Part shown: positions 26,032 to 57,306 of the stretch, one piece after another | Position numbering within the stretch: position 1 is the first letter of the stretch | Layout: each line of letters starts with the position of its first letter | Assembly: GCA_021018995.1 (NCBI GenBank) | Contig: CM037595.1 | Coordinates: 95,182,491-95,246,490, forward strand | DNA from: Chloranthus sessilifolius | Taxonomy: Eukaryota; Streptophyta; Magnoliopsida; Chloranthales; Chloranthaceae | Direction: 5' to 3' | Length of the DNA: 64,000 bases | Made by a program: the position numbers and the translations under genes | Notes under the pieces: generated by a model | The model's database searches: none | Told to the model about the DNA's origin: nothing | The model's input: the letters and a program-made list of their open reading frames with translations, nothing else

Positions 26032-26107
<76 letters not shown>

Positions 26108-35083: not shown

Positions 35084-35195
35084 GGGAAATTTGCACTTTC
35101 GGCCCTATATGTTTGCGTATTTGTAGAAATGACCCTATAGTTTCAATCCTTGCATAAATGGCCAACTCCAAGCCTAGCCGCGTGCACGTCAGATA
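35084..35195 (+). repeat. MULE left terminal inverted repeat
   Basis: Matches the reverse complement of about 55130-55244 with a small number of differences, out to CCAAGCCTAGCCGC and ACGTCAG. Confidence 0.9.
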
Positions 35196-35332
35196 TCTAT
35201 ATATATGCTTCTCTATGCAAACATTGAATCTAAAATTTTTGTATCATTTTTTAACAATTTTTATCTCTCTTGGAAAGCGATTTCGAGATTCCACTAAAGG
35301 TCGTATAACATAGAGAATACAACAGGCTAGGT

Positions 35333-35626
35333 AAGATATCGAGTACAATATCTTTTAAGTTATTGTTTTCCCAATTTCTCAAAACATTGTAGGTAGTCCA
35401 AGATATCGGTCGATAACTTTTTAGTTTTTGGATTATGGTTTACGTTAAAAGTCCATCCATCGGCTATATATCTTAGGATATCGAGCGATATCCTATGATT
35501 GACAAAAACGCTAAAGTTTTCATTCCTTTAATTTTTTAATAATATTTTTAAACAATTGTAGCGCTAAGTCAAGTATAACTCTTTATAAACAACTAATTTT
35601 AATTTTAATTTTGTAAATATTGTAGG
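35333..35626 (+). other. Probable intron in the 5' leader of the MULE transposase gene
   Basis: A donor-like AG|GTAAGAT at 35331-35338 and acceptor TATTGTAG before 35627 bracket a stretch that includes decayed copies of the ATCGGTCGAT / ATCGAGCGAT words seen in the other arrays. It precedes the ATG at 35632. Confidence 0.5.
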
Positions 35627-35631
35627 TTGAA

Positions 35632-36661
35632 ATGGATGTTCCCCTTCTTTGCCATTTTGATTTCGTATGCGTGAGAGATAATACTTACAACAGAGGACAT
35701 CGGAGGATTATCACTGTCACGGAGAATATATCATTTGATGAGTTTATAGAGAAAATGTACAAAGTCAGTCGGACACGACCGGAAGAACATTCTATTACAC
35801 TTACTGTTTCATTACGCATAGGGAATGAGCTTGTATTTGCCGAATTGTCTGACTCTGATGATCTTACAAACTTATTTAGAGCATATCGTATCGGTGATGG
35901 TGTTATAAATATTTATATCGAAAAATCATTAGTCACTCATCAGGCAGAAATTTTGCCGTCTTTAGAAACATTTCAACCGTTTAAGGAAACAAACGAAGAT
36001 GATCATGGTGTTGGAACAGAACATTTGATTGAAAATCAAGGAATACGGTATGAAGAGAACATTGTTGCACCGATAATAGCTGACGATGATAGAAATATAA
36101 ATATAGGATTCCGCCCCTACAGTAAACTTCCAGAGCAACCCTATTCAGACATTCCGAGGAGTGAAGGCGATGAAGATCAAGGATATTCTCATCAAATGAA
36201 TCCGATGCATGATACATCTCAGTTCAACTTCGATTCGGTAAATCAGTGGGAAACGTTTTTAGTCGGCCTTAGTCCATATCAATGGCCTTCCGAACAAATA
36301 GCTTCGGAGCCAACGATAATCGAGCCTTCAACAGAACAGCCTCTCATACATCAAACATTCTCGCATCGGCTAACATCAATCCAAACAACTGCACATCAAC
36401 CAAGCGTACATCGACGGGCTCAATCCCAATCATGTAATAACCATCCAGTCGATGACGGTGATAGTGATCCTGAAAATAATGAAGCCCCGCCGTCTCCCAC
36501 TTCGCGTGTTTATACTAATAGGGGAATTGATCAACCTCTGGTGGACGAAGACTATCAGCTTAATGACTCGGAAGGGGAGTACATGGATTCAGACGATGAG
36601 GAACTGTATGAAGGGGGAACGATTACCATTGGTCAGGCGTTTAGAAATAAGAAATCATTTC
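35632..36661 (+). pseudogene. MURA-like MULE transposase, N-terminal half (PB1-like region)
   Basis: Open from the ATG six bases after a predicted splice acceptor to the point of retrotransposon insertion. Residues 1-100 have the look of the PB1-like N-terminal domain of plant MuDR transposases (ISFDEFIEKMYKVSRTRPEEHSITLTVSLRIG...LVFAELSDSDDLTNLFRAYR). A long acidic, Pro/Gln/His-rich linker follows, and the end (YEGGTITIGQAFRNKKSF) is the usual entry to the DNA-binding domain of MuDR-type transposases. The rest of the gene lies beyond the insertion at 48819. A conventional stop appears only because reading enters the LTR. Confidence 0.82.
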
Positions 36662-38888
36662 TGTGATGACCCGACTTTTCCAATCCCTAAGGTATAGGAA
36701 AGGCCGGTTCATCAACTTATTGATTTCTCAATAAGCCGTAACAAACAGAAGCCGGCAACATAAACAAAGGTCTAAAGCAGAGGCAAAGCAGAGATAATTC
36801 ATAATTCAAAAGCTTGTAATAACAAATCTATCATGATGAGGAACCAAAAGGAACCACCGGTGATGGCCAATCCAACACCTAAACTAATGGTTCACGATGA
36901 TGGTTCCTCGAGTGATATCAAAAGATAAAAAATAATAGCCTAAGGCTCATCATCCAAAATAATATCCAGACAATACCAAAAATAGAAAATCTAGGATCAC
37001 GGGAAGAACTCCTCAGCTGGTATATCCAAATCCTCCTGAAATATAATCGAGTCCTCCGGATCCTCGACCCAAGGTCTCAAGACTGTGACGTATAGTCGAG
37101 GGTGAGCTAACAGCCAAGCTCAATAGGGGAAAACAGATCTATTTGCATTTTTATAAGTAAAGGTTTTCAAAAGACGGAATCGGATCAAATATGATTTTAT
37201 TTTTCAATGATGCTTTTCAAATTAAATCTCGATTCTAATCTCGAGTCAAACCGATAACAAATCTAAAGTGTTCAAATGTTACGATTTTGCATGCTTCTTG
37301 TCTTTAATTTATAACTTAATTTTATCTCCCAAATTTCCTATAGCATGAGAAGCGGACTACGTGACCGATGGGAAGACCCTCTGACCATCATCGCTGCTCA
37401 TGAACCCATTTCGAAAATGCAACAAGCCCCTATGCTATGAGGGAAACTTGCGCCAAAGTTTTACCGTCAACACGGTTGGTGGAATCTAGGGCATCGTACG
37501 TATGAACCAAAAATCAAATGCAAATGCTAACACGTATCCAAGCTTATTATTCATATCTTATACTGATTTTCAAAGTTCTGATTCGAAGTTCTGATTCAAA
37601 AGTTAACTGAGGTTCTGATTCAAATTTAACTGAGGTTCTGATGTTCGGATTCCAAAGGTTCTTAGTTATAGCAAGGTTCACAAATTTTTCAAATTGAGCC
37701 ATGTGTTCAGAGTTTTATTTATACTGTGTGCAACAGAACTTTAAATACAATTTATACTTATAATTTGATGCAAATTAAATACAAGGTTCCCCTACCTTAA
37801 CCAAGCAAAATCAAAGGCATGTCTAAGCAATCCTCTCCAAGGACTCCCAATTTGACCAAAACCTACATATATTAACACCCTAAGTGTTAATATACAACCC
37901 AAAATTTAATCCAAAGGCTTATAAAACAAAAAAATCCAATCAAAATTTAAAAAGCCAGAACTGGACAGAATTCGACCATCGATTTCAAATTCGATGGTCG
38001 ATTTTAAAATCGACCATCGAATTTCAGAACTCTGTTATAGCCTTAAAAATTCATTTTCGACTGTCGATTTCCAAATCGACAGTCGATTTCCAATTTCGAC
38101 AGTCGATTTTGAAAATCGATGGTCGATTTTCTCAGGTACTTTGGCTGTAACTTCTAACATGCTCGGATTCTTTTCCCCATTTTTTTCCACCAAAGCTTTC
38201 TTATCCAAAAATAAAAACACCACACACCATTCTAAACATAAATCGAATCCAAAAGACAAAAGGATGTTTAAAGGCCTACCTCTTGTAGTTTAAGCCGTTG
38301 CCTCCGTTGTACCAAAGCACGCACCGGAACCAATCTTCGAAGTTCAACGGCTTAAATCTCCAAAACAGTTCATCATTCAAATGAGGTTGTCACTGCCTCA
38401 GCTACAACAAAATTATATAGAACTGCTCACTCTCCACATCTCTCTTCTCTTTCAATAGTTCAAACAGATCCGAAAACAAATACAAGGCTAACTATTGGTT
38501 GAGATGGGGAGAGGAATTCTCAAACTCTCTAGATCAAGGATCAAATGAGGCAAAGCCTTAGAGCTTAAATTTCTAACGAGAGGGAGAAGATAACTTCTCT
38601 TGTAACCTCTCTCTTCTTATAATATAAAAGTTGTAAATAAAAAATCTAGATATTTTATTTACAACTTATCCAATTATTCTTGCAAAACATTCGGCGTTAA
38701 ACACAAAGACCAACGTTATTGTGTACGTCGTTGATTTCCTGACTTGTACACCTCTTAAAGCGAAATCCTTAAGCCAAAAGTCTTATCATGGACTTAGATT
38801 ACCAAAAGTCCAAAAATATCCTACAGTATTTTCCGGGCACGCTTACCGAGGTAAACGAAAATATGCCGAAAATATCAGGGATATTACA
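36662..38888 (-). repeat. 3' LTR of the chromovirus
   Basis: 2227 bp; on the minus strand it starts TGTAATATCCC and ends in CA. Nearly identical to the right LTR along most of its length. Contains the TCGACCATCGA array at about 37973-38130 and an AG/CT-rich stretch at 38430-38620 with a TATA-like region. Confidence 0.92.
37973..38130. repeat. Array of TCGACCATCGA / TCGACAGTCGA words in the LTR
   Basis: Ten or more 11-bp words, each a near-palindrome of the form TCGAyyrTCGA in one or other direction, separated by TTTNAAAT spacers. Repeated in the other LTR at about 47896-48056. Confidence 0.85.
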
Positions 38889-38903
38889 TTCACCCCTCCT
38901 TAG
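38889..38903 (-). promoter_or_regulatory. Polypurine tract
   Basis: On the minus strand AAGGAGGGGTGAA abuts the start of the 3' LTR, the expected second-strand priming site. Confidence 0.7.
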
Positions 38904-39252
38904 GAATTTTCGTCCGCGAAAATTGAACATAAGACACACCAAACAAGAAAAGAATAGAAAACATGGGACACCGTGTTTCGATCCCACAGGGCACGCAAGC
39001 CAAGGGATGGGATCCGTAGTAACATGGATGTACTGCATGTGGCATGAAAAAGCCATAGTGGATTGCATCCGTACATGGATGCCCACACCCCAAGTGTCAC
39101 GTGCCGGGAGACCGATGCACAATGACGCATGAAAGCCATCAAAGAAAACAAGAAGTACAAAAGTGACAAGGCAAATTCACACAAGCATCTAACTGAAGCA
39201 GAGACCAAAAATAACCACAAAAGTAACTCACATAAAGATCCAATCACGCATA

Positions 39253-40599
39253 TTAAAAGATGAAAACAGCATCGAGCGGAACTATATACAAACAAGAGAA
39301 ACAGAGTATCCAAGTAAAGCGAAAGACAAAAATATAAAAGATAACAAAAGAAGGACCACCAGGTCCTAATAATCCATGCTGTAAATAAATACAGACCCAT
39401 AACCACCATAGAAAAAAAGCACTCTCCCCAAGTACACTAATAATCCCCAGAAGATGGACCCCGATCCAAGTACCATCACCAAAGAAGATCATCATCATCC
39501 GTAGATCCTCCCCGTCAGAAAGGCATGCTAGGACCAGACCGATGTCGAAGGGCGGGAGACTGAAGCACGAATATCGGCCATATACGTCATGTGATCCTCT
39601 GGAAACGCGTGCTGCATCAGATACGAGAGGGCGCCGCCCTGGACATCCAACTCCTGACGCATAGAGCTGGTATGGTGGGTGAGCTCCACGAATCGGCTCA
39701 TGGCGGTCATCTCCGGGTAAACTCGTAGAGAGTGTGAGAACGCCACCTGTAATGAGGAGGTGCAGGTAGTAGTATCCGGATAGAATGAGTAGAGTTGATG
39801 TATCAGGTGCCTCTGCATCCTTTGGAGTCTTTACCAGCCTACTGTAGGTTTGACCCCAATTGACCAAAGTATACATTCTCGAACCCGCTGTAGATTTAGG
39901 TTCAGTAGGAGGGATATCATAAGCAGGGCCCGCTCGGTAGTTCTCGATCAGCACCGAGATTATGCGAGCATAGGGCATTGTCTTCAATGGTTTCTTCACA
40001 TGTTTGCCCATTTTCTCTCGGGCTTTGATAATCCCTTTAAAAAGAATTTCAGGAGCACTAAACCATCGCTCCTTATAGGCCGCAAAAAGAATTTGTTGAA
40101 GGGGACCGGTGCGCTCCGATTGATGACCAAAAGGGTAAAGGGTGGACTTTAAAATTTTATCCAAGATCCACATGGTCTCCGGCATATGGACCGTGACGAT
40201 GGATTTACCGGACCCATGACGGCCTTGCGTCATCTGCGTGATTATATCTTCAAAACGGACCGGTCTGGGGAATGGAGGACCTAGACCCATGGTTTGTGAG
40301 TGGTTTAAAGGGCATCTCAATGCCACAGCCATGTCCTCTAGGTCGAAGGTATAATCGCGGCCATCAATTTCGGTATAAATTCTTTTCCCGTCTTCGCGGC
40401 TCATGTGCTGATAAAATAGACGCACGAGTCGGGGATAGAAATGATCGCTAAAGGTCGTGCACAGAGAGGTCAATTTGGCCTTCTCAAGGTATTCACCCGC
40501 CCATTGTGTGGTCGTTTGTTGATCAAATAACTCGGGGTGAAACAAATATTCTGTCATGAAGCCTTTAATGCTCCAAAAATCATTGGGTTGCTCAGGCAA
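39253..40599 (-). CDS. Extra retrotransposon-borne frame (plant transposon protein-like domain)
   Basis: A long frame in the sense of the element, between the chromodomain and the 3' LTR, where ordinary chromoviruses have none. The first 290 residues (FMTEYLFHPELFDQQTTTQWAG..., ...FYPRLVRLFYQHMS, ...ALRCPLN, ...WILDKILKSTLYPFGHQ, ...MPYARIISVLIENY) resemble from memory the putative plant transposon protein domain common in plant repeats. It has no catalytic motif that I recognise. After residue 290 the reading looks out of register. It belongs to the retroelement and is treated as a fossil; its function is unknown. Confidence 0.6.
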   Translation of the reverse strand: MPEQPNDFWSIKGFMTEYLFHPELFDQQTTTQWAGEYLEKAKLTSLCTTFSDHFYPRLVRLFYQHMSREDGKRIYTEIDGRDYTFDLEDMAVALRCPLNHSQTMGLGPPFPRPVRFEDIITQMTQGRHGSGKSIVTVHMPETMWILDKILKSTLYPFGHQSERTGPLQQILFAAYKERWFSAPEILFKGIIKAREKMGKHVKKPLKTMPYARIISVLIENYRAGPAYDIPPTEPKSTAGSRMYTLVNWGQTYSRLVKTPKDAEAPDTSTLLILSGYYYLHLLITGGVLTLSTSLPGDDRHEPIRGAHPPYQLYASGVGCPGRRPLVSDAARVSRGSHDVYGRYSCFSLPPFDIGLVLACLSDGEDLRMMMIFFGDGTWIGVHLLGIISVLGESAFFLWWLWVCIYLQHGLLGPGGPSFVIFYIFVFRFTWILCFSCLYIVPLDAVFIF

Positions 40600-40984
40600 G
40601 GGGGAGACAGTGGGTGGTGGAGCCGACTGGTGTCGGTATGCGTTTTAGCGGTTTGTAGACGCAGCTTTAGAAGATTGCGTTTGGAGGTGGGATTTGAATG
40701 GGTGTCTGCTTAGGCCCCATTAAATCAAAATTTAAAAGAACACCCACAAAATACTAGAAAATAGGGATGAATAGAGCAAGGTTTACCTTGTGAAAATGCC
40801 CCAAATCGGTTTTGCAAGGATGTAAATATGCTCTCCTTGTGAAATGTAGTGAATCCCTTTGAATGCAATACCAAAAATTGAAGAGGAAGCTCCAAAATCC
40901 CCAAATCGCCCGAAACCCCTCAAAACCCTAAGCTCAAAACCCTCAAAACAGAAAACCGAAATGCCCAAAAGTTTAAAACCCCCA

Positions 40985-41170
40985 AACTTAAATCGATAAA
41001 TTCGACCATCGATTTCAAATTCGATGGTCGATTTTGCAAATCGATGGTCGATTTGAAAATCGTTGGTCGATTTTCTCAGAACATCCTAAGTTCTGTTTTT
41101 GGCCGAAAACTGACCTGAAACCTGATAGAAATTTCGATGGTCGATTTTGCATTTCGACAGTCGAATTTTC
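40985..41170. repeat. Internal array of TCGACCATCGA-type words
   Basis: The same 11-bp words as in the LTR arrays, here inside the element, between the chromodomain region and the extra frame (upstream of that frame on its strand). Confidence 0.85.
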
Positions 41171-41696
41171 TGATACTGTTTTTAATGAAAATTTTTCAAA
41201 ATTTTTGAAATTCCAAGCATGCCCTTGGGTCTAATTGCACCCTCTTTGAGTCCATTTCATGCCCATCACCTTATTGGCTATGATTGCATTACCACAGCCG
41301 GAATTTGGCGTAGAAAAATTGAAGAATAGGCCAAGTAAGCTTTTGGCCAATTTATTTCTCAGTAACATGTGGAATTAACAAGTCCGGTTTTGGTCGGGCT
41401 CATAAAAGTTTTAGGATTTTCTACATCATAACATAATTAAAAGCTATAAACATGGACAAAAATATGGGTATATATATAGAGTCATGACATCAGTATCAAG
41501 GCCAAATTGATGTCACTTGGCCAATAGTGTGTAAGACACTAAGTGCAGGCCTGATAGTATTAAATTTTATATAATGTAGAGTCTTCTAAACAAGCACTAT
41601 ATTGGGCCGACAAAATTTATCGCCAATCATCTGTATAAAATCAGTAATTACATAAACTTCAAGAAAGTATACATTAAACACTTAATGTCCCAAAAT

Positions 41697-42040
41697 TCAA
41701 TTAAAAAGGTTCGGAAATTGGTCCCGGAGCCCAGCTTCACGCTCCCAAGTGGCTTCCTTCGGTGTGTGATTCCGCCATTGTACAAGAACCAAAGGAATCC
41801 TTTTAGTGCGTAGGATCGCGCTCATGCGATCCAAAATCTGAATCGGGTCCTCAATCACCTTCAAACCATCCTGAAGCTCGATGGGTTGGTAATCAAGCAC
41901 GTGAGTCGGGTCACGGATGTATCGACACAGCATCGACACATGAAAGACGTTGTGCATGCCTGATAATTGCGGCGGTAACGCCACACGATATGCAACCTCT
42001 CCGACTCGGCCTAATATCTCGAAAGGCCCAACGACGAGGA
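41697..42040 (-). CDS. Retrotransposon integrase tail with chromodomain-like end (fossil)
   Basis: Reads GMHNVFHVSMLCRYIRDPTHV...LVQWRNHTPKEATWE, the conserved end of chromovirus integrases including the W..H...ATWE chromodomain core. Part of the element at 36662-48813. Confidence 0.8.
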
Positions 42041-43008
42041 CTAAGTTTCCCTCGTTTTCAACGATAACGCCTTGGTAGTAAATCCGAACAAAGACATTCT
42101 CGCCGACCTGAAAAATCGAGCATTAGTGCCAATTTCACATGGAATGAATACCAAGTGAATAAATACCCAGTGACATATCAAAACTACCTGAAAGTCCACG
42201 TGTCTCCGTTTGAGATCGGCGTAGCTCTTCTGACGACTCTGAGCTACTCGTAGTCGCTCGCGTATCAACCGAACTGTCTCGGTAGTGCGCTCAACTATCT
42301 CAGGTCCAATAATGAGCTTCTCACCCACTTCTTCCCAGTTCAACGGTGATCGGCACCGTCGTCCATATAACGCCTCGAATGGAGCCATACCAATACTAGC
42401 CTGAAAGCTATTGTTGTAGGCGAACTCAATCAGAGGCAAGTGTTGGTCCCATGACCCGTGAAAATCCAGCATACATGCTCTCAACATGTCCTCAATGATC
42501 TGGTTCACGCGCTCGGTCTGGCCATCCGTCTGTGGGTGAAACGCCGAGCTAAAATCAAGACGAGAACCCATGCCCTCCTGAAATCTCTGCCAAAAATGTG
42601 AAGTAAACAACGGGTCTCGATCAGACACAATACTAGCCGGTATTCCATGCAGTCTAACAATCTCTTTCAGGTATAACTCTGCAAGTCTACTGGCTGTATA
42701 GGTGGTATTATATGGTAAGAAATGAGCAGACTTGGTTAGTCGATCTACTATGACCCGTATGGCATTGTTCTTTCTCGATGTCTTCGGCAATCCGAAAGGT
42801 ATAAAATCCATCGAAATGGCTTCCCATTTCCACTCAGCCTGAGTAAAGGCTGCAATAGACCTGCAGGATTCTGATGATCAACCTTAACCTGTTGACAAAC
42901 CAAACACCGCGATACGTACTCAGCGACGTCGCGTTTCAAACCTCGCCACCAGAAACTCTTCATCAAGTCCTGATACATCTTGGTGCTACCAGGATGTATG
43001 GCATACAT
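42041..43008 (-). CDS. Retrotransposon integrase (zinc-binding region and core; fossil)
   Basis: Shows an integrase H2C2-type start ([14 protein letters not shown]...[12 protein letters not shown]) and the core with [27 protein letters not shown] and [24 protein letters not shown], typical of Ty3/gypsy. Interrupted; fossil. Confidence 0.88.
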
Positions 43009-44420
43009 GGATTTGTGAGCTTCTTCCGAATGGTGTCCCGAAGCTCTCGACTCGACACATACATACGGTCATGAAATAACAAGGTTCCATCCGTCGAATG
43101 GAGAAATCCTTCATCGCCATTCTCGACATCTCGTCTGATTGCCATCAGCTCATCATCGGTCATCTGAAGCTTTCGAATATTCTCGAAGAGCGTAGGACGT
43201 AATACAAGCGTAGCCATCAATGCTCCCGAGCCTTTTACATCAAACCTTGAGCTGCCCAAAGCCATATCTTCCAATAGCTTCCATCGCTGAATCCGGCTCA
43301 CAAGATGTGATAACTGAGCTGAAGACCTTCTACTAAGAGCATCAGCAACGACATTTGCCTTTCCTGGATGGTACTGAATCGAGCAATCATAATCTTTCAA
43401 AAACTCCATCCATCGTCGCTGCCTCATGTTCAAGTCCTTCTGAGTGAACAGGTACTTGAGACTCTTATGATCGGTGAATATATCAAATATCTCACCGTAA
43501 AGGTAATGTCGCCAGATCTTCAAGGCGAATATAACTGCTGCTAGCTCTAAGTCATGCGTCGGATAGTTTCTTTCATGGTCCTTCAACTGCCTAGAACCAT
43601 ATGCAATGACCCGCTCGTGTTGATTAAGCACACAGCCTAATCCGCCATAGGAAGCATCACTATATATCGCAAAACCTCCCGCCGCAAGGTATAGCAAATC
43701 GGTGTTTGTAGTCAAGCGCTTTAGCTCTCGAAGCTCGCCACACCCTGTCCAATCGAACTTTGCATTCTTTCTTGTAAGCTGTGTAAGCGGACCAGATATC
43801 TTTGAGAAACCCTCGACAAATCGCCGATAGTACCCTGCCAAACCAAGGAAACTTCGGACCTCTGTAACTGTCGTAGGTTGTTCCCATGTCACCACAGAAT
43901 CTATCTTTGTAGGATCCACTGAGATACCCGATTCAGAGACTACGTGGCCCAAGAAACTGACCTGCTCAAGCCAAAACTCACACTTACTGAGTTTGGCATA
44001 CAACTGATGGTCCCTAAGTGTTTGAAGAGCCATCTTCAGATGCTGCACATGCTCCTCTCTGGTTTTTGAATAGATGAGGATGTCATCTACAAAAACTACC
44101 ACAGATTTGTCAAGATGTGGTTTGAACACCCTGTTCATCAGGTCCATGAAAGATGCAGGCGCATTCGTCAATCCAAATGGCATCACTAGAAACTCATAGT
44201 GGCCATAACGCGTTCGAAACGCAGTCTTGGATATATCTTCCGTCTTGATCTTGAGTTGGTGATAGCCTGACCTCAGATCAATTTTCGAAAAGAACCTTGC
44301 ACCTTGCAATTGATCAAACAAGTCGTCTATCCGCGGAAGAGGATAACGATTCTTAATCGTCATCTTGTTGAGTTGCCTATAATCGATACATAGACGCATC
44401 GATCCATCCTTCTTTTTCAC
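42963..44420 (-). CDS. Retrotransposon reverse transcriptase / RNase H (fossil)
   Basis: Reverse transcriptase wording [44 protein letters not shown] and the FVDDILIYS active-site box, followed by RNase H ([10 protein letters not shown]) and [17 protein letters not shown]. Part of the element at 36662-48813. Confidence 0.92.
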
Positions 44421-44616
44421 AAATAGAACCGGTGCACCCCAAGGAGAAACACTCGAATAAAGCCTTTGTCTAACAACTCCGAAGTTGTTCCTTGAGCTCT
44501 TTCAACTCGAGCGCCATCCGATATGGAGCTTTAGATAATGGTATCTGCCTTAGCTCAATCGAACTCAATCTCTCACGTGGTAATCCGGTAAGTCCTCCGG
44601 AAAGACATCGGGATAA

Positions 44617-45120
44617 TCAGAGACCACCTTGATAAGAGCTAAGTCGTTCTTCTTCTCGGTGAGAATCTTGCAAATAGGCCGATACCCATCGCAACCATTC
44701 TTCATCATACGCTTTAATTTTAATGGTCAAACCAACGCACAACCTTGGATTTGACTCACGTAATCGGAAGGATTTTCGCTTTGGCGGTCGGAAGGTCACT
44801 ATCTTCCGAAGACAGTCCACGCTCGCGTGATAAGCTGCCAACCAATCCATTCCAAGAATGACGTCGAACCCTTCCATGCTCAACGTAATCATGTCGGTCA
44901 ATGTCTCGTGCTCATCAATCATCACGATGACTGACTGACATGCTGTATCAGTACATACCGAACTCCCCGTAGGAATCTTGACATCTAAAATGAAAGCAAG
45001 GGGTTCGGGAGTAATACCCAACTTCTCTGAGAAGGAAGGAGTAATAAACGAGTGTGTAGACCCAGGGTCTATAAGTACTCGTGCCTCAATTTTATCCACG
45101 TCGTCTCGACTACACATCAT
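44617..45120 (-). CDS. Retrotransposon aspartic protease region (fossil)
   Basis: VLIDPGSTHSFITPSF and the later FDVILGMDWLAAYHA are the two hallmarks of the plant Ty3/gypsy protease region. Confidence 0.88.
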   Translation of the reverse strand: MMCSRDDVDKIEARVLIDPGSTHSFITPSFSEKLGITPEPLAFILDVKIPTGSSVCTDTACQSVIVMIDEHETLTDMITLSMEGFDVILGMDWLAAYHASVDCLRKIVTFRPPKRKSFRLRESNPRLCVGLTIKIKAYDEEWLRWVSAYLQDSHREEERLSSYQGGL

Positions 45121-45199
45121 AAGTGTACCTTTAGTTAAAAAGTTCGTTAATTATATGCAATGATTCCTATGTGTTTTAACATAATTGACTTGTATGTAG

Positions 45200-46560
45200 A
45201 TTTAAACAATAATAATTGAATCAATGCATAATTGACGTCTCAACTTTAATGATACCTTGAATGACGTCATTCGACGTTTGGGCATCCTGTGCGATCCGCA
45301 TAAGCCCGACCTTGAAGCGTAGGGGTGGTCGATCTGCGAGAGACCGTCAGAATCCGTCCTTTCTCAATAGTAGGACAATCCTTGATCATGTGACCAACTT
45401 TGTCCACTCCTCAAGCATCCTCCGGTGTTAAATGCAATCCTCATCCTATGTGGTTGCCCACATCTTGCACACAATGGGGTAGAAACAGGAGTAACAGCTG
45501 ACCCTCTCGTCGAGCCCTAAGCCACAGAAGCTCCACTCGCAGTAGTGCTCCCGGCTCTGAAAGGTCGTCCTGGTGACGACTCGAGGTCTCGATAGGAAGA
45601 TGTCACTGGTCCCAAGCAACCGGTCTAGAATATGATGGTGACTAGGGTAGGGAGGAGGTTTAGAGAACCTCGGCTTTTTGTTCACCCGCTCAAGCACTCA
45701 GTCTCCCCGCCAAACCTATTTTATTACCCGCCTCGCCTCAAGTATCTTTTGAATATCTTCCTCTGCAATGAGGGCCTTGGACATCACGCCAAAGATATGT
45801 CTCCATTTCCACATCGACACCCTCTCCTAATGTTCCTCAAACCTCTCAAATTTCTCGAGCTCTCATCACCAAGGGCCACATGTAGGGGTGCAAATCGAAA
45901 GTCTATCAAATTCTGCCATACCATACTCAAGACCGACATCTCATTCGTTCAATTCAATAAATTGGACCTCCCGATGACGCATCCTGAAAGTAATCGATCG
46001 TTGAACGCCTCCACAAACTCGCCCAAGTCCATGGAGTGTTGGGGTAGTCCCGCTCTCTCATCCGGAAACAGACTTCCACCACGGCGGCCTCGCCCAAAGT
46101 TTGAAAGATGCCCACAGACTTTCTCAACACTCCAGACATCGCAACACTTCAAATATCTTCTATCTCATCCAGCCATGCCTCTCGGCTTCCATAGGATCCG
46201 CGCCCGAGAATGTAGGAGGTCTCATCCTCTTAAACTCGCTAATCCTCTGGTGATGTCTAGCGCCAAAGATCTCCGTCTCATCAATGGTCAGCCGCTCAGG
46301 GCCATGTTAGTAGCCAAAGGCGCCAATACCTCGCCTACATTCCTCTGTCTTGCCTAGCAGTTCCCAAAGGTTACGTGAGGGCGAAGCAACTCGCCTACGC
46401 ATATGAGGTGCCACGCCTCATCAATCTCCTCAATACGAGCCGACGAGGTCCTCTATACCTCGCCTCGCCTCTAAACTGTGGAGGCATGCCGATCTGTCAT
46501 TGTTAAACAAACAATAACAATTGATCGAATAAATTGTTAGAAATAATCTAACCCTAGTCC
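45200..46560 (-). pseudogene. Retrotransposon gag region (fossil)
   Basis: Minus-strand reading shows gag-like scraps (a WTWASLWRRS-like segment, a zinc-knuckle area near 45380-45490) in the expected place between the primer-binding site and the protease. It is clearly broken. Long frames on the plus strand here are shadows. Confidence 0.65.
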
Positions 46561-46581
46561 TAAGACTATGAACCTAGAGCC

Positions 46582-46597
46582 TTTTGCTCGATACCAA
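46582..46597 (-). promoter_or_regulatory. Primer-binding site of the chromovirus
   Basis: Minus strand reads TGGTATCGAGCAAAAG two bases inside the 5' LTR end, close to the tRNA-iMet type TGGTATCAGAGC. Confidence 0.75.
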
Positions 46598-46599
46598 GC

Positions 46600-48813
46600 T
46601 GATTTACGACCGACTTTTCCAATCCCTAAGGTATAGGAAAGGCGGTTCATCAACTTATTGATTTCTCAATAAGCGTAACAAAAGCCGGCAAACATAAACA
46701 AAGGTCTAAAGCGAGAGGCAAAGCGTAGATAATTCATAATTCAAAAGCTTGTAATAACAAATCTATCACGATGAGGAACCAAAAGGAACCACGGTGATGG
46801 CCAATCCAACACCTAAACTAATGGTTCACGATGATGGTTCCTCGAGTGATATCAAAGATAAAAATAATAGCCTAAGGCTCATCATCCAAAATAATATCCG
46901 AGACAATACCAAAATAGAAAATCTAGGATCACGGAAGAACTCCTCAGCTGGTATATCCAAATCCTCCTTGGGAATATAATCGAGTCCTCGGATCCTCGAC
47001 CCAAGGTCGCCTCAAAGACTGACGATATAGTCGAGGGTGAGCTAACGACCAAGCTCAATAGGGGAAAACAGATCTATTTGCATTTTTATAAGTAAAGGTT
47101 TTCAAAAGACGGAATCGGATCAAATATGATTTTATTTTTCAATGATGCTTTTCAAATTAAATCTCCAGTTCTAATCCTGAGTCAAAATTGATAACAAATC
47201 TAAAGTGTTCAAATGTTCTGATTTAGCATGCTTCTTGTCTTAAATTTATAACTTAATTTTATCTCCCAAATTTCCTATAGCATGAGAGCAGACTACGTGA
47301 CCGATGGGAAGACCCTACTGACCATCGTCGTTCATGAATCCATTTCGAAAATGCAACAAGCCCCTACGCTATGAGGGAAACTTGCGCCAAAGTTTTACCG
47401 TCAACACGGTTGGTGGAATCTAGGGCATCGTCGTATGATGAACCAAAAATCAAATGCAAATGGTAACACGATCCAAGCTTATTATTCATATCTTATCTTG
47501 ATTTTCAAAGTTCGATTCAAGTTCGATTCAAAAGTTAATCGAGGTTCGATTCAAATTTAAGCGAGGTTACGATGTTCGGATTCCAAAGGTTCTTAGTTAT
47601 AGCAAGGTTCACAAATTTTTCAAATTGAGCCATGTGTTCAGAGTTTTATTTATACTGTGTGCAACAGAACTTTAAATACAATTTATACTTATAATTTGAT
47701 GCAAATTAAATACAAGGTTCCCCTACCTTAACCAAGCAAAATCAAAGGCATGTCTAAGCAATCCTCTCCAAGGACTCCCAATTTGACCAAAACCTACATA
47801 TATTAACACCCTAAGTGTTAATATACAACCCAAAATTTAATCCAAAGGCTTATAAAACAAAAAAATCCAATCAAAATTTAAAAGCTGAATCGAAATTCGA
47901 CCATCGATTTCAAATTCGATGGTCGATTTTAAAATCGACCATCGAATTTCAGAACTCTGTTATAGCCTTAAAAATTCATTTTCGACTGTCGATTTCCAAA
48001 TCGACAGTCGATTTCCAATTTCGACAGTCGATTTTGAAAATCGATGGTCGATTTTCTCAGGTACTTTGGCTGTAACTTCTAACATGCTCGGATTCTTTTC
48101 CCCATTTTTTTCCACCAAAGCTTTCTTATCCAAAAAAAATAAAAACACCACACACCATTCTAAACATAAATCGAATCCAAAAGACAAAAGGATGTTTAAA
48201 GGCCTACCTCTTGTAGTTTAAGCCGTTGCCTCCGTTGTACCAAAGCACGCATAAACCAATCTTGAAGTTCAACGCTTAAATCTCCAAAGCAGTTCATCAT
48301 TCAAATGAGGTTGTCCTTTGCCTCGGCTACAACAAAATTATATAGAACTGCTCACTCTCCACATCTCTCTTCTCTTTCAATAGTTCAAACAGATCCGAAA
48401 ACAAATACAAGGCTAACTATTGGTTGAGATGGGGAGAGGAATTCTCAAACTCTCTAGATCAAGGATCAAATGAGGCAAAGCCTTAGGGCTTAAATTTCTA
48501 ACGAGAGGGAGAAGATAACTTCTCTTGTAACCTCTCTCTTCTTATAATATAAAAGTTGTAAATAAAAAATCTAGATATTTTATTTACAACTTATCCAATT
48601 ATTCTTGCAAAACATTCGGCGTTAAACACAAAGACCAACGTTATTGTGTACGTCGTTGATTTCCTGACTTGTACACCTCTTAAAGCGAAATCCTTAGGCC
48701 AAAAGTCTTATCATGGACTTAGATTACCAAAAGTCCAAAAATATCCTACAGTATTTTCCGGGCACGCTTACCGAGGTAAACGAAAATATGCCGAAAATAT
48801 CAGGGATATTACA
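46600..48813 (-). repeat. 5' LTR of the chromovirus
   Basis: 2214 bp; on the minus strand begins TGTAATATCCC at 48813. Carries the second TCGACCATCGA array (about 47896-48056). Differences from the left LTR are mainly short indels. Confidence 0.92.
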
Positions 48814-48818
48814 ATTTC

Positions 48819-50802
48819 AAAAAGTTCTTAAAGAATTTGCGATGACAAATAATTTTCAGATTAAACCAATAAAAATCAGTCCTCTTCGAGTAACTGCGAG
48901 GTGTGTTGAAGTAGGATGTGCTTGGCGAATACATGCCTCGAAATTAGTAGGCGTAGACACGTTTGCTGTGAAAACTTTCCACCCGAAACACACGTGCGGA
49001 ATGCCAGCTTTTGGAAGCGGACATCGCCAATGTACGACATCGTGGATAGCTTCATTCGTTAGAGATAAACTATTAAAGGGTTTTGACGAGACTCCTGCTT
49101 CAATAATTTTTGATATTGAAAAAAAATACGGTATAACAAAGATGAGTTCTTTGGAAAGCATGGAGAGGGAAAAAAATGACGTAGAATAATATCCCAGGTA
49201 GCTGCAAGGAGCAATTTAAGATGTTACTAGTCATATGTTGTCAATTACTGGTCGATCGCGGACATACCGAATTGTGTCTCGAGCCGATAATGCATTTGAG
49301 ATTCTTCGTGGCATTCAACCTTGCATTCAAGCTTTCGTAATACTTTACGAAGAATAATTATAGATGGAACGCATTTGCGTGGACGATATAAGGGAGTGTT
49401 GTTAATAGCTACGGGGATAGAGCGAATAGACATTTATTTCCTATAGCGTTGACGTTATAGAAAGAAAATGAAGACCATTGGACATGGTTTCTTGATCTAT
49501 CAGGGAGACGTGTAATCGGTGAATTTGAAGAACAGTTTGTTTTGATATCGAGCAGATGTAGAAGGTTTGATGGAAGCGGTGGAAAAGTTTTCAATGCCTT
49601 TCATATCTTGTATGCATGACACGGCTCTAAATCTGTTTTGATAAATATAAGGATACAATCTCTAGACCGCTCGGGTTCTTTGCCGTGCATTTTCGAAGCA
49701 AAATTTAAAAGAATTATGCGAAAATAGAAGACGACGCTCAGAAATGTATAAAATGGATTAAAGAAATTGGTGATCATTTCGACGCACGCTTATTTCCAAG
49801 GGAGGCGTTATGATATGTTGACAACTAATATAGCTGAAAGCATAAATAGTGTGTTGAAAATAGCCAGGGAGGAACCGATTGTGAGCATGTTAGAAACTAT
49901 TCGCACAAAAGTAGTCGAATTTTATCTTCGTCGTTAGGAGGAAGGAAATAAAATGACACATGTGTTAACACCGATGGCAGAAAAACACATAAAAAGAAAT
50001 TCAGGATGGGCCCGTCGAAAAAACGTCATACCATATGGTCGTGATATATTTCAAGTTAAATGTGGTGATTACACTCACAGTGTCGATCTAGAATCGCGAA
50101 TATGTACATGTAGACGTTGGGCTATTCTTGGATTACCATGTTCACATGCGATCGCCGCATTATCACGCCGAAACAGAGAAAGAGAGATCCCCTAATTTTG
50201 TGAACACTGGTTTACCAGTGACTTATTTAGGGAAACTTATAAATAACACTTTGTCCCGACCGTTGACAAGCGCCAATGGACTTCGCAAATAAAAGACATT
50301 CAAGTTTTGCCTCCCCACAAAATACGCCGTGTCGTCCAAGAAGAGGAGAACAAGATCTAAAGGGAAGTTCGACCACTACAATGTAAAAATTGTAACAAGT
50401 ACGGTCAATAATCGTCGTCAGGTAAATTTGTTAATATTTGAAATTAACTTATATTACATCAAAGGTTGAGATTGAAAATAGATTTAGATTAGATTAGACC
50501 TAGTGGCAATCGAGCTTCCAAATGATCTCATTATAGAAGAGTATTTTTTTTTTCTCTTTTTCTTTCCTTCAATATAAACAGATTAGACCTCAATAAAAGA
50601 GCGATCAACATCTACCAATTAATTAATATATTTTTTTGGACTAATAATTAAATTTTAGAATTGTGATTAAAATATATTGTTGTGCTTCTTAATAAATCAT
50701 TCATTCATTCAAACAGGATTTGAAGTTGCCAAATTCGCCCCTAATCTACTAGTGATTGGCATAAAGCCAGACCAAAGATATCAGGCTTCACAATTAAGAA
50801 AG
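48819..50802 (+). pseudogene. MURA-like MULE transposase, remaining part (DNA-binding, MULE, SWIM regions)
   Basis: Continues the gene left at 36661. In order: DNA-binding region with Cys/His spacing (RCVEVGCAWRIHA...KTFHPKHTC, 48902-48997); the MULE catalytic region starting IIDGTHLRGRYKGVLLIATG, whose first catalytic Asp codon is at 49363; a run of frame changes through about 49400-49940, including an in-frame TAG near 49937; then NSGWARRKNVIPYGRDIFQVKCGDY and a SWIM zinc finger CTCRRW...PCSH (50103-50147). A CKNCNKYG knuckle-like piece is near 50380-50405. Splice-like sites suggest a donor at 50421/50422, an exon 50717-50802 and another donor at 50803. Broken by the retrotransposon and by its own frameshifts. 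Confidence 0.85.
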
Positions 50803-50805
50803 GTA

Positions 50806-51230
50806 GATATCTTAAATCATCGGCCGATATTTTAAATCATCGGCCGATAACTTAAATCATCGGCCGATATTTGAAGTAATCGGACGATAGCTTAAATCAT
50901 CGGCCGATGATTTAAAATATCGGCCGATGATTTAAAATACCGGCCGATGATTTAAGATATCGTCCGATAACTTAAAATATCGGACGATGATTTAAGATAT
51001 CGACCGATGACTTAAAATATCGGCCGATAATTTAAATCATCGGCCGATAATTTAAATCATCGGTCGATGATTTAAGCTATCGTCCGATTACTTAAAATAT
51101 CGTTCGATTACTTAAGATATCGGCCGATGACTTAAATTATCGGCCGATGATTTAAGATATCAGACGATGATTTAAGATATCGGCCGATGATTTAAGTCAT
51201 CGGCCGATGATTTAAGTCATCGGCCTATTG
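50806..51230. repeat. 20-bp palindromic minisatellite, array 1 (about 21 copies)
   Basis: Unit of the form TTTAAATCATCGGCCGATGA with strict 20-bp spacing. The core ATCGGNCGAT is kept (variants GGCCGA, GGACGA, GTCCGA) while the AT spacer varies. It begins 3 bases after a donor-like AAG|GTAGAT at 50803, between the convergent MULE genes. Confidence 0.95.
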
Positions 51231-51404
51231 GAATTGCTTCAAGAGAGAAAGGCTCCATTGATAAATCAGGCAAGGTGATACAAATAAGATAAATTGATAA
51301 CAACGAAAATGAAAATTATATAAGTTAATAAAAATTAATAAAATTAATTATTTACAATTTCATCAAAAAATATCTTTACAAAAGTCTAAATTTTTTTATA
51401 GATA

Positions 51405-52956
51405 TTAACTCTTCTTCCCAAACGTGCACATTAGATGTCCGATTTCGGCTCTAAATTGTTGCATATGTTTATCGTCGAAATCAATAGGCCGCTGTTGGGA
51501 GAAGTATTCTATATACTTCAAAACGTATATACCGCAATCCCAACCGTTTTGTTGGATCGGGAGAACGACACTGTTGAACGCCGATACCTTCCACTGTTGA
51601 TCGAAAGCTGACTTCAAACCGATAGCGTAAAGAAGGCGCGGAAGGTGATTCAATAGACATTCTTTATGCGCTTCAAACCTTTTTGAGCACTCTCGGTCTG
51701 CTGGATCTATTAACTTGATTTCTCGATCAACTAATGAAATTATAGCCAACGCCCAATGGCTATGTTTTTGGCTATGCATCGGAAGATAAATCTACACATA
51801 AACGGAACCGAAATTTTAAATAATAAATTTTATTTAAAAGCCGTTAACGTTAAATAAAGCGAAGTTTAGTATTCAAAAACGTACCGTTCCACAGTCAATC
51901 GCGTGAATTCCGCGGATATTATTTGCCAATAGTGGTTCCATCGACTTTGAATTGTTACGAACATTCCATTCGTCACAATAGGCCTGCCACCTATCGAGGT
52001 CGCTGAGCGCAGCTATACCTTCATTATCGATATATTTTTCAAATTTTTTCTCGTCTGCCATAAACAAGGTCTGAAACAGGATAATATAGTAAGTAAATAA
52101 ATTAGAAGAAGTTAATCAAGAGTCGTGATTGAAAAGACAAATAAAAGAAATAAACGAGCTTCCAATAAATATTTGAAACCTTACCAGGGCAGACGCAGAA
52201 GCGAACCAGCTTTTTTCGGCATTGGCCGTAAATATTGAATCGTTTATAACTTCAAGGACTCTCAGTATGCGTCGATGACTTCATTGTCGAGCCACGAGCG
52301 TCTTTTGAGAACCTTCAAAAGAGCAACTGTGATCTCAACACCCCTGATAGTATTGACGATCACAGTGTCCTCATTCTCCGGCCGATTCCAAAAACTAAGC
52401 ATATACTTTTGCTCCATTGATTTTGCCCCATCCTCCTCCTCCTCTACAACCAATCTTGGTTTTTTTATTAATGCTTTAGTGGTCGGAGACTTTCTCTTCT
52501 TACGAGCACGCAAGTCATAACCTTCGACTTCATTTTTTGTAGATGATAGTTTCACTATAATTGTTTTTAGTGATGCCGGCTGTGACTCACGAGAAGGCTG
52601 CGTAAGAGGAGCACCATCATCACCCACATCAACCAAGGATTGTTTAGTAGGCTGAGGAGCGATGAGGTTTTGGGGGCGTGGGTTTAATGGCGTGAGATTT
52701 ATTTGTAAGTTGAGGCGGCGGGTTTTGGGGCATTGATTGTTGTCTAGGTGGATGAGCGAGAGGTTTTGGGGGCACTTGGTGATGGCTTGGTTGAGGAGCG
52801 ATTGGTTTTGAACGGATGATGGCTTTGTTGAGGAGCAGTGGATTTTGGGCGATGGTGATGGCTTTGTTGATGAGTGGTGGGTTGAGGGACAGTTGATTGA
52901 GGGTAAGTGGGTGAAGGAATGAAGGTGTCAAAGAGCACAGAGGTTAAAATATTATC
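51405..52956 (-). CDS. MULE-borne Ulp1 (C48) cysteine protease, C-terminal exons
   Basis: Minus-strand exons inferred from splice-like borders: 52185-52956, 51885-52060 and 51405-51791. The last exon holds the protease core: His in SHWALAI (51756-51758), Asp in KLIDP (51705-51707), Gln in QQNGWDCG, and Cys in the same motif (51534-51536), so the full Ulp1 catalytic set is present. Upstream are WLDNEVIDAY (typical start of the Ulp1 domain), INDSIFTANAEKSWF, and TLFMADEKKFEKYI. Before that is a Pro/Gln/Ser/His-rich linker readable only in changing frames (52640-52956), and there is an apparent one-base frameshift near 52258. Ulp1 proteases remove SUMO-like tags; in Kaonashi-type MULEs their role is unknown. 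It probably forms one gene with the frame at 53301-54725. Confidence 0.82.
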
Positions 52957-53003
52957 CTGCATAATTGCAAAAAAATATACATTACAAAAAATAAAAAATA
53001 AAA

Positions 53004-53285
53004 AAAAAACTGCATTATCGACCGATAATTTAACTACTCGGTCGATAATTTAAATAGTCGATCGATAATGTACATTATCGGTCGATAATTTAAGTTATCG
53101 TCCGACGATGTACATTATCGACCGATAATTTAAATAGTCGGTCGATAATGTAAATTATTGACCGATAATGTAACTTATCGGTCGATAATTTAAATTATCG
53201 TCCGGTAATGTACATTATCGATCGACTATTTAAATTATCAGTCTATAATGTACATCGTCGGACGATAAGTTTCATCTTCGGATGA
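53004..53285. repeat. 20-bp palindromic minisatellite, array 2 (about 14 copies)
   Basis: Unit of the form ATTATCGACCGATAATTTAA, spacing 20 bp, same core family as array 1 but with GACCGA/GGTCGA centres. Lies inside a predicted intron (52957-53354) of the Ulp1 gene. Confidence 0.95.
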
Positions 53286-53300
53286 CAAGCTAATTTTGCA

Positions 53301-54725
53301 TTAATTTGTAAAGAATTGATTTTGTTCTAAATTTGAAAAGTCTTGGTTTGATACCTTTCTTAAATGAGAGATGACCGCATCAAGATCCTTTCGTATTGCT
53401 TTATTTTTTTCTTGTAAGGCCTTCTTATCTCTCCCTAGTTGTTCAATGGTGAGTGCTTGCCCTTTAAGCAGCATAAATGCACGCCGGAATTCTTTTTTCA
53501 TTTCTTTTACAGCCATGCGGAGCGTCTTGCATTCTTTTCTTAGCTCCGTTACTTCTTTGGTTAGGTGCGGTTGCCTAACTGGCTGCTCTCTTGTTGGCTC
53601 GGGCCTAATTTCCGATTTGTCCTTTGGTTGACGTACAACGACTTCAAAATCATCGTTATCGTCGCTATAATCTTCGTCATCCTCATTGTTGTCATCTCGG
53701 CTAATCGGCTCTTCGGCTCTTTCTTCCGGACGAGTTGGATGACTTGGGATATCATCATATTCATCTATATTTTCTTTAGAGTAAGGCTCTTCTCTTTCTT
53801 CGGTCTCTTCCTTCTTATTTTCCATTTCTCTTCGAATCAAAAAGTATCGAACCCATTTATACTGTAATTCGTGCTTCTCAACTTCAAGCTCTAAAATCAC
53901 TTTAGACTTAAGAAATTTTTCTCTATATAAATTAGGATTACGGCTGAATTTCGGGCCTTCCCATTTCATTAGCCTTGGAAATGGTTCTTTAAGCCCAATA
54001 GGAGCGGTGGCGACTGCAGGAAAGTGCTCAAACGCCCAAATCTGTAAGGCGATAGTGCATCCATAGATATTGTATTGCCCCTTTTCTGACATTTTCGCCA
54101 TTTCCCTCCTGCCACTCTCTTTTGATATACTATCTAATAAATTATTGTAAACTATCAGGCCCCACGGTAACTTGTTGAACTCTTTAATGTTATCTACTAA
54201 TTCTAAGTACCGCGTATCTACTTCCTGGTATGTGTCCGGAAGTAAAAAAGAACATACGAAAAATAATAATGACAGTTTCAAAAAATCATCGTTGGATAAA
54301 TCAGCACTGTCAATAATTTCTTCAATACGAGATCTTTTCACCGGCTTCCCCCGAAAGAATTTGTATCGAATAGTTGTTTCCTCTTTTACGACCACCTTCT
54401 CAGACTCAGGTTCCGTCAACATGTTGAGGCCTAAAATCAAGGCTATATCGATCTGTTGCAAGAGTACATTGGTGTTCTTGACCTTGAAAATATTATCTTC
54501 AACCCAAAAACTTAAAATAGCGTCAACCAAGTCTCCAACGAAACCTAATTTCTCATTCATCCTAAATAGATGACCGAATACTAAATTATCTAATATTTTC
54601 TTTCTCTCTTCGTTACAGTGCATGTAAAATTTCCTAACACCAACTCCAGAACATTTTTCGATGGGCTTTAGAGTCATGGTCATTTTCAATAACTTAGTAG
54701 GAACTGCAATATAAATAAAAAGCAA
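53301..54725 (-). CDS. MULE-borne DUF1985-like protein, N-terminal part of the Ulp1 gene
   Basis: Open over 474 residues. After an N-terminal region (KKILDNLVFGHLFRMNEKLG) come LQQIDIALILGLNML, FLKLSLLFFVCSFLLPD and FNKLPWGLIVYNNLL...YNIYGCTIALQIWAFEHFP. From memory these fit the DUF1985 domain that sits in front of Ulp1 in many plant transposon proteins. Residues 300-370 are very acidic (DDNNEDDEDYSDDNDDFE) and 390-460 look like a coiled coil. A donor AAG|GTATC at 53354 would end the exon and join, in phase, to the acceptor before 52956, so the last 17 residues of the open frame are probably intron. At the other end TATATTGCAG before 54703 is acceptor-like and ACATTTCCAG|GTAATT near 54938 donor-like, placing the true start at an internal ATG (MTMTLKPIEKCSG). 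Apparently intact. Confidence 0.72.
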   Translation of the reverse strand: MLFIYIAVPTKLLKMTMTLKPIEKCSGVGVRKFYMHCNEERKKILDNLVFGHLFRMNEKLGFVGDLVDAILSFWVEDNIFKVKNTNVLLQQIDIALILGLNMLTEPESEKVVVKEETTIRYKFFRGKPVKRSRIEEIIDSADLSNDDFLKLSLLFFVCSFLLPDTYQEVDTRYLELVDNIKEFNKLPWGLIVYNNLLDSISKESGRREMAKMSEKGQYNIYGCTIALQIWAFEHFPAVATAPIGLKEPFPRLMKWEGPKFSRNPNLYREKFLKSKVILELEVEKHELQYKWVRYFLIRREMENKKEETEEREEPYSKENIDEYDDIPSHPTRPEERAEEPISRDDNNEDDEDYSDDNDDFEVVVRQPKDKSEIRPEPTREQPVRQPHLTKEVTELRKECKTLRMAVKEMKKEFRRAFMLLKGQALTIEQLGRDKKALQEKNKAIRKDLDAVISHLRKVSNQDFSNLEQNQFFTN

Positions 54726-54756
54726 TTAATAAATAAAAGAAGTGATTTTGAAAAAT

Positions 54757-54880
54757 AACCGATAACTTACCGATAATCTAAGTTATCGATCGATAATCTA
54801 AGTTATCGACCGATAATCTAAGTTATCGACCGATAATTTAAGTTATCGTTCGATAACTTGGGTATCGGTAAGTTATCGGA
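54757..54880. repeat. 20-bp palindromic minisatellite, array 3 (about 6 copies)
   Basis: AAGTTATCGACCGATAATCT-type units, spacing 20 bp, inside the predicted first intron (54704-54938) of the DUF1985/Ulp1 gene. Confidence 0.92.
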
Positions 54881-55129
54881 TTAGGTGGGAAACATTGGGG
54901 ATGACTAAATGTGTTGAAATGTAAAAAAAATAAATTACCTGGAAATGTAATGTGACCTTTGTGACCTTTTACCGCTTTGACGCCGCTAAGTCGCCGCTCT
55001 CTTGTTTTTTTCAGAAAAGTTAAATTTAAAAGTAACAGTAACTAATGAAATGTAAAAGTAGCTTTTATACTCTCTGTTAAAGGGCGGTGAATTTTTTTTT
55101 TTTATATTATTTAAAATAGGTCCTTGCTG

Positions 55130-55244
55130 ACGTGGAGCAGGCGGAGGCGGCTAGGCTTGGAGCTGATCATTAATGCAACGGTTGAAACTATAGGGCCGTT
55201 TCTGCAAATACGCAAACATATAGGGCCGAAAGTGCAAATTTCCC
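55130..55244 (-). repeat. MULE right terminal inverted repeat
   Basis: Inverse of 35084-35195, ending GCAAATTTCCC at 55244. Confidence 0.9.
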
Positions 55245-55257
55245 TTCTAAAAATACC

Positions 55258-56064: not shown

Positions 56065-56929
56065 AGATTAATGATGACACCAGCACAAGAGGGTTTTAAC
56101 CTGTCGGGTAAACTCGATGGGTCAAAGTCAAACGACCCGACCCCGCCATAGGTTTGGGCTTGGGTTCAGATTTTCAAGTCCCAACCCATTATGTCGGGTT
56201 GAAAATTGTGACTCACTTATTTCCAAGTTCCACTCAACTACTGAATTATTTATTATTTAATTCCCAACAACATTACTGATTATATACCCAATATAAAAAT
56301 TCACCAAAATTTTAGATACCAAAAATTTAAAATTATCCCAAAATAATATAAAAAACCTACCAAAACTTTTAGATACCAAAAATTAAAAATCATTACAAAA
56401 TTTGGTTATCAATCTAAGAACATGTAGATTGAAGGTTTTCTTTACAAGAATAATTCATGATTTGCCACAAATCCTCTATTGGTTGAGTATTCGTCCAAAC
56501 GTTGATATGCTTTAATGGGGGAATCATCTATCTGATGGGACTTGAATTTGATGGGTAAATGAAGGGCCTTTTAGAAGAGTACTTTTAAATCCACTCATCG
56601 AATCTTTGAGTCCACTCACGCTGAAACATGTTAATTGAATTGAACGATGGAGATAATTTATCCTCCCAATCTTTCAAGATATCGATCTTTAGATCATGGG
56701 TATACCCTCAGACAGTCGATTTTTTATTTCACGTGGCACACATCTCAGAAAAGTGACTTTAACATCACGTGCATGCTTAAAATTGAGTTTAAGGTCACTT
56801 TTATAGGTGTGTACGATATGAAATTCAAAAACCGACTATATGATGGTACACTCATGATTTAAAGATCGATCTCATGAAATATTGGGATGATAAACAACTC
56901 TATCATCTGATTCAATGCAGTCAATGTGT
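56065..56929. other. Body of the outer element, no gene seen
   Basis: Includes a GGGTCGGG-type patch at 56100-56215 and sequence matching the interior of the elements at 58119 and 59448 in inverse order (CGTCCAAACGTTGATATGC near 56490). No frame of note. Confidence 0.6.
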
Positions 56930-57306
56930 TTCTGCATGGGTGAACTCAAAGATTTTGTGGGTGGATTTAAAGGTACTCCTTTTAGAATGGTGGTAGTAAG
57001 GCTATAATGGCATAACTTGTAAATAAAAGTGAACGAAAGGCCTTTTAAAATGGTGGTAAATTATAATGGCATGACTTTAAAGATAGATAAATGAAGGGCC
57101 TTTTAGAATGGTAGTATTTTTAGAAAATTGGTTTCATTAAGGGCAAAGTAGTCGCTTCAATCCATAACTCATGGCTAGTTAACGGGAGGGGGATATAAAA
57201 CAGAAACACAACAGGAAGGGTTGCAGAATAAATACCCATAACTCAAGAGGTTTGATGTAATATCGGCATATCTCAGGGGAGTATATGCAAAAAACTCTGT
57301 TTTGGA

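Follow-up and report, generated by a model that had tools for sequence, protein, structure and literature searches.

Palindromic 20-bp arrays in a Mutator-like element of Chloranthus sessilifolius as candidate targets for VANC-type anti-silencing

The window analysed here, 64,000 nucleotides of Chloranthus sessilifolius contig CM037595.1 (assembly GCA_021018995.1, positions 95,182,491 to 95,246,490 of the forward strand), contains a Mutator-like element (MULE) at 35084..55244 that carries two genes and three tandem arrays of a 20-bp palindromic unit. All coordinates below are those of the window, and neither the element nor its arrays are assigned a strand. The MULE is bounded by terminal inverted repeats (TIRs) of 98 bp (35084-35181 and 55147-55244), identical at 89/98 positions, and is flanked by a 9-bp target-site duplication in the form of matching direct repeats at 35075-35083 and 55245-55253. 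Both this duplication and a Mutator-like transposase gene (PF03108) were found. An empty-site paralogue within 56800-57350 is uninterrupted across the MULE junction, with 381/430 aligned bases identical; in a second paralogue, near 59600, a deletion affects the junction, leaving no clean empty site. Nested inside the transposase frame is a Ty3/gypsy element on the minus strand (36662..48813), with TG...CA ends and a 5-bp target duplication, ATTTC. Its long terminal repeats (LTRs; 36671-38888 and 46610-48813) show 41 substitutions over 2184 aligned bases, and the gaps between them are mostly single bases, perhaps sequencing errors. Because the gypsy element splits the transposase frame, insertion of the MULE is older than the divergence of these LTRs.

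The transposase gene is read on the plus strand. Its 5' part (35626..36661) is an open frame with a weak match to PB1 (E 0.018, under the cut-off), and the remainder (48814..50421) is a pseudogene read across three frames. This remainder begins with a MuDR DNA-binding domain (PF03108, E 1.6e-9), downstream of which are two further stretches in different frames, with stops, that resemble a transposase core and a SWIM finger. The second gene runs in the opposite direction, on the minus strand, and we call it VANC-like after the proteins discussed below. Exon 1 (53355..54683) encodes an acidic stretch and matches two Pfam families, the plant mobile domain (PMD; PF10536, 39.0 bits, cut-off 34.9) and DUF1985 (PF09331, 36.8 bits, cut-off 35.1). 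The middle part (52185..52956, minus strand) encodes a linker rich in proline, serine and glutamine, in which Tandem Repeats Finder reports a tandem repeat at 52721-52874, followed by the start of a protease; its frame is broken at least once. The C-terminal exon (51405..51791, minus strand) encodes a Ulp1 protease (peptidase C48; PF02902, 66.9 bits, cut-off 20.7). Homologues of the DUF1985 exon numbered one by protein search and three by profile, namely the same one and two others, all in Eutrema. The C-terminus of exon 1 is helical in a low-confidence structure model (mean predicted local distance difference test score, pLDDT, 42.7), and such helices would fit, if weakly, a coiled-coil dimer seated on a palindrome.

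Array A (50806..51230) consists of 21 units of 20 bp with the core ATCGNNCGAT and lies mid-element, in the gap that separates the 3' ends of the two convergent genes. The VANC-like gene holds array B (53012..53271, 13 units of 20 bp) in its predicted first coding intron and array C (54780..54859, 4 units of 20 bp) in the predicted intron of its 5' untranslated region (UTR). Tandem Repeats Finder recovered a period of 20 at 50806-51225 (21 copies), 53023-53268 (12.3) and 54769-54856 (4.4). The cores of array A are exact in 18/21 units and have one mismatch in 3/21; those of array B are exact in 4/13, with one mismatch in 8/13 and two in 1/13; all four of array C are exact. Three further two-mismatch matches to the core lie off phase in array B, at 53100, 53254 and 53274. 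With palindromic sites counted on both strands, the window yields 49 strand-matches to ATCGGNCGAT, where shuffled sequence would give 0.35. Allowing any centre, the window holds 42 exact cores, 28 of them in the MULE. Spacing is strict: every one of the 18 pairs of exact cores at 20 bp falls inside arrays A to C, both pairs at 21 bp fall outside them, and within the range of 15 to 29 bp no other spacing is represented in the window. Two dyad axes, spaced by 10 bp, run through each unit. At the core axis, a mean of 7.75 (A), 6.69 (B) and 6.33 (C) out of ten pairs are complementary; the second axis gives 7.14, 7.38 and 6.60, respectively, and other phases 1.0-4.0. Units are more alike within arrays (0.82, 0.80 and 0.90 for A, B and C) than between them (0.72-0.79), and the arrays thus look to have been homogenised separately. 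No triple 20-bp array was found in viral contigs, and no Rfam family matched the window at gathering thresholds.

The half-sites and the phase of the arrays look constrained. Taking the half-site as eight columns of the 20-bp unit and the remainder as twelve, array A differs from its consensus at 3/168 half-site positions and at 63/252 of the others (p 2e-12), and array B at 10/104 and 35/156 (p 0.007). In array C the corresponding counts are 0/32 and 6/48, a difference that is not significant (p 0.08). Between its first and last core, each array is free of indels, despite at least 46 substitution events. Core CpGs are retained in 71/76 cases; for comparison, the gypsy LTR pair has changed at 16/72 CpGs and at 25/2040 other positions. 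The kept CpGs may reflect selection on the sites, or sites that were unmethylated for long.

All 28 exact cores of the MULE lie in non-coding DNA, with none in the coding remnants and none in the TIRs. Coding limits here follow our own gene models, by which the MULE has 2697 non-coding and 5312 coding bases. Introns were predicted from splice-like sites, for which the scan also listed other candidates. Two isolated cores, at 35405 and 35480 (35405..35489), fall within the transposase gene's predicted 5' UTR intron (35331-35625; donor 35331, acceptor 35626), and array C falls within that of the VANC-like gene (54938-54704; donor 54938, acceptor 54703). The predicted first coding intron, 53354-52957, holds array B; its acceptor (52956) was found by the scan and its donor (53354) was placed by eye, the scan giving no donor there at threshold. 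Array A lies directly 3' of a donor-like site at 50803, with no clear acceptor. A sequence-only reading of this DNA had proposed strict 20-bp arrays with a common palindromic core, amplified separately and placed in introns of a Ulp1-carrying MULE. The arrays are as it described them, in 21, 13 and 4 units with indel-free 20-bp steps, and their separate amplification agrees with the likeness of units within each. They do belong to a Ulp1-carrying MULE, as the PF02902 exon shows, and their exact cores are non-coding. The case for introns is plausible for the 35.4-kb pair and for array C, less strong for B and unsettled for A. The array-specific centres that it reported are there in part (GC in 13/21 units of A, GT or AC in 8/13 of B, AC in 2/4 of C), less sharply than claimed. 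The stretch 35395-35500, which it took for decayed 20-bp copies, contains two exact cores spaced at 75 bp and shows no autocorrelation at 20 bp.

The same reading had held that no MULE feature like this was described. That is mistaken, since target arrays of VANC proteins, which carry DUF1985, have been published for VANDAL MULEs (PMC5735166, PMC10398659). VANDAL MULEs of Arabidopsis encode VANC proteins, composed of DUF1985 and repeat-rich variable regions, and VANC expression strips DNA methylation off cognate elements, related VANCs using other motifs (PMC5735166, PMC10398659). VANC21 binds a 9-base motif, YAGTATTAY, repeated in tandem upstream of VANA21 and within introns of VANB21 and VANC21; the protein occupies introns, intergenic DNA and terminal non-coding DNA (PMC5735166). 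Like VANDAL21 (Hiun), the element described here is a MULE with a second gene that carries DUF1985 and a short tandem motif in non-coding DNA; in both, the arrays are homogenised separately and part of the protein is repeat-rich and variable (PMC5735166). The positions are also similar to those of VANC21 targets, in that cores lie in an intron of the DUF1985 gene, in upstream introns of both genes and in intergenic DNA (PMC5735166). Unlike the VANC21 motif (PMC5735166), however, the word here is a palindrome, ATCGNNCGAT, at a strict 20 bp, and the element has clear TIRs and a Ulp1 domain. VANC6 of VANDAL6 is likewise a relative that uses a tandem motif of another sequence, AGTTGTCC or AGTTGTAC (PMC5735166).

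Other published elements share the Ulp1 domain. Ulp1-carrying VANC genes (KIU, Kaonashi) reportedly target motifs located in the elements that carry them (PMC13317346), and in KI-MULEs the Ulp1-carrying gene lies on the strand opposite to the transposase (PMC2528002). The present element is like these in having Ulp1 in a VANC-like gene opposite the transposase and motifs in non-coding DNA, and unlike the KIU elements, which are non-TIR MULEs, in having TIRs. Ulp1 is also found in TIR-MULEs of grapevine, in either orientation, and of melon, which the present MULE resembles in combining the domain with terminal repeats (PMC2528002); the words minisatellite, subterminal and tandem repeat have no occurrence in that paper. 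Both gypsy elements and MULEs include members with a plant mobile domain (PMC5418596). MAIN and MAIL1, which share the PMD match of exon 1, are in contrast host genes that act in silencing, and their link to the 'DOWN' promoter motif is one of association (PMC7156037, PMC5418596).

Since the anatomy of this MULE is the same as that of the VANC/VANDAL systems, we read the arrays as probable landing sites of the element's own DUF1985-Ulp1 protein. On this view, a MULE with clear TIRs would harbour a VANC-type anti-silencing system that recognises a motif of its own. In support, DUF1985 and PMD score over their Pfam cut-offs in one element that also encodes Ulp1, and the DUF1985 gene has a tandem-repeat linker comparable to the repeat-rich variable regions of VANC. 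Sites for an element-encoded protein and control of silencing were among the possible roles named by the sequence-only reading, and a combination of the two appears, by analogy with VANC, to be the best available. In such a system, the second gene would encode, or in intact copies would have encoded, a DUF1985/PMD protein fused to a Ulp1 protease, and this protein would bind the ATCGNNCGAT palindrome, probably as a dimer. The 20-bp spacing, about two turns, would align all sites along one face of the helix. The study behind the KIU statement (Sasaki et al. 2022) reportedly found specificity to be set by the sequence, density and helical periodicity of motifs, with which 20-bp phasing would agree. 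Bound in the introns at the 5' ends, in the coding intron and mid-element, the protein would remove DNA methylation and other silent marks MULE-wide, and with silencing lifted, both MULE genes could be expressed. For binding to the arrays and loss of methylation we infer from the VANDAL elements; dimer binding and a role for the Ulp1 domain are suggested far more tentatively. This is most likely a known kind of system, and we found no description of the element family or its motif; among open-licence PMC papers no printed account of ATCGNNCGAT arrays was found, in searches not aimed at the motif.

Several observations weigh against this interpretation. The DUF1985 score is barely over its cut-off, the VANC-like assignment comes from Pfam domain matches, and homologues are sparse and confined to Eutrema. 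The splice from exon 1 to the middle exon as modelled loses the open frame, and the gene model is therefore provisional. Judging by its sequence, the present MULE copy is not functional, because its transposase gene is split and broken and its VANC-like gene has a broken frame. VANDALs have no or degenerate TIRs, unlike the MULE here, and because of its clear terminal repeats we have not filed it as a VANDAL. VANC21 and VANC6 motifs are absent from the MULE, though these motifs are family-specific. Selection on the sites, rather than absence of methylation, can account for the retained core CpGs, and elsewhere in the MULE, too, CpG shows no depletion, standing at 1.12 of expectation. Finally, the word is not confined to the arrays: 16 exact cores lie outside them, where 0.82 are expected from dinucleotide frequencies, and 8 of the 14 that lie beyond the MULE (the other two being its isolated cores) sit in three hAT-like miniature inverted-repeat transposable elements (MITEs). 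If the interpretation is correct, sequence-specific anti-silencing of the VANC type extends to a MULE with clear terminal repeats. It would also supply a clean, palindromic and phase-locked motif, with which dimer binding, helical phasing and the contribution of Ulp1 could be tested by gel shift.

A transposase or transposition accessory protein might instead bind the arrays, in the manner of the subterminal repeats of DNA transposons. The transposase does contain a DNA-binding domain, and small clusters of cores lie 311 bp and 364 bp from the MULE ends. However, cores are not concentrated at the ends: none lies in the TIRs, and the largest array is central, 3570 bp and 4014 bp from them with the gypsy element excluded. 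Two of the three arrays, moreover, are in or before the DUF1985 gene, and we regard transposition sites as unlikely. A role in RNA was also considered, in which array transcripts form long hairpins that give rise to silencing small RNAs, or act in splicing or 3'-end formation. RNA of array A folds at -270.7 kcal/mol, against -104.4 in shuffles (z -29), but such folding is expected of any tandem palindrome and leaves both the conserved half-sites and the exact 20-bp phase unexplained. As the sole account of the arrays it seems very unlikely, although it may hold in addition to protein binding, as the host side of an arms race.

Could the arrays be neutral minisatellites, the product of slippage and unequal exchange acting on an AT-rich palindrome, in a genome in which palindromic arrays of about 20 bp are common? 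The excess of the word outside the arrays and the undepleted CpG of the MULE would both fit, as would the three MITEs with ATCGNNCGAT, in which two pairs of cores are spaced at 21 bp, and the nested gypsy element, where another palindrome, TCGAYNRTCGA, is arrayed every 19-20 bp in each LTR and ahead of an extra open reading frame (ORF). Palindromic arrays of about 20 bp are thus not unique to the MULE. Against an origin of this sort stand the same half-sites in three arrays of differing units, the very uneven conservation of columns in A and B, the absence of any phase slip and the lack of exact cores in coding DNA (0/28); it is improbable in our estimation. The gypsy arrays allow two readings: palindromic arrays may be common in this DNA, or a second, similarly designed system may be present. 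Generalising from the latter, element-owned palindromic arrays at about two turns might have arisen in unrelated transposons of plants as a general means of countering silencing, with the MULE pairing ATCGNNCGAT with its DUF1985/PMD-Ulp1 protein, the gypsy element pairing TCGAYNRTCGA with its extra ORF protein, and the MITEs hitch-hiking on the MULE protein. To this wider scheme we give a small chance.

The three MITEs (12255-12517, 22887-23166 and 31510-31698) have ends resembling CATGGATCAAA and are classed as hAT-like because of their 8-bp target duplications, GTTCCCGC, GTTGGGAA and ATATCAAT. VANC6 also acts on AT9TSD1 elements, described as unrelated to VANDAL (PMC5735166), and is thus a precedent for the occurrence of the MULE's word in these MITEs. 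By observed/expected ratio outside the arrays, only TATA- and ATAT-type half-sites outrank the MULE word.

Reverse transcriptase, RNase H and protease of the nested gypsy element score over their Pfam cut-offs and integrase under, and no exact ATCGNNCGAT occurs in the element. Its TCGAYNRTCGA arrays lie at 37972-38126 and 47897-48051, with seven copies per LTR, and at 41002-41164, with five copies about 0.4-0.6 kb upstream of the extra ORF; spacing is mostly 19-20 bp, and two more copies occur elsewhere in the window. The extra ORF (40644-39253, minus strand) lies between integrase and the 3' LTR, on the same strand as pol. A 315-residue piece of it matches PF20167, a putative plant transposon protein, at 28.1 bits (cut-off 45), no homologues were found at E 0.001, and its structure model is poor (mean pLDDT 39.2). 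Profile comparison with DUF1985 gave no support for a relationship (probability 0.5%), both profiles being very shallow. Retand-lineage gypsy elements have extra ORFs, mostly antisense and of unknown function, with predicted DNA binding, and tandem repeats (PMC11963269). The palindromic arrays upstream of the extra ORF offer a lead on what such ORFs may do.

Other repeats are present in the window. The repeat-rich stretch adjoining the MULE includes 90-bp tandem repeats containing ATCGTCCGAT, at 58638-59001 and 61260-61609. The inverted arms of a fold-back element at 15802-17541 are about 620 bp long, are 85% identical and enclose tandem repeats of about 181 bp; an ATCGGCCGAT lies at 17420. 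The segments 2283-9787 and 11615-26311 form a large diverged duplication that includes a PPR gene and is split by insertions.

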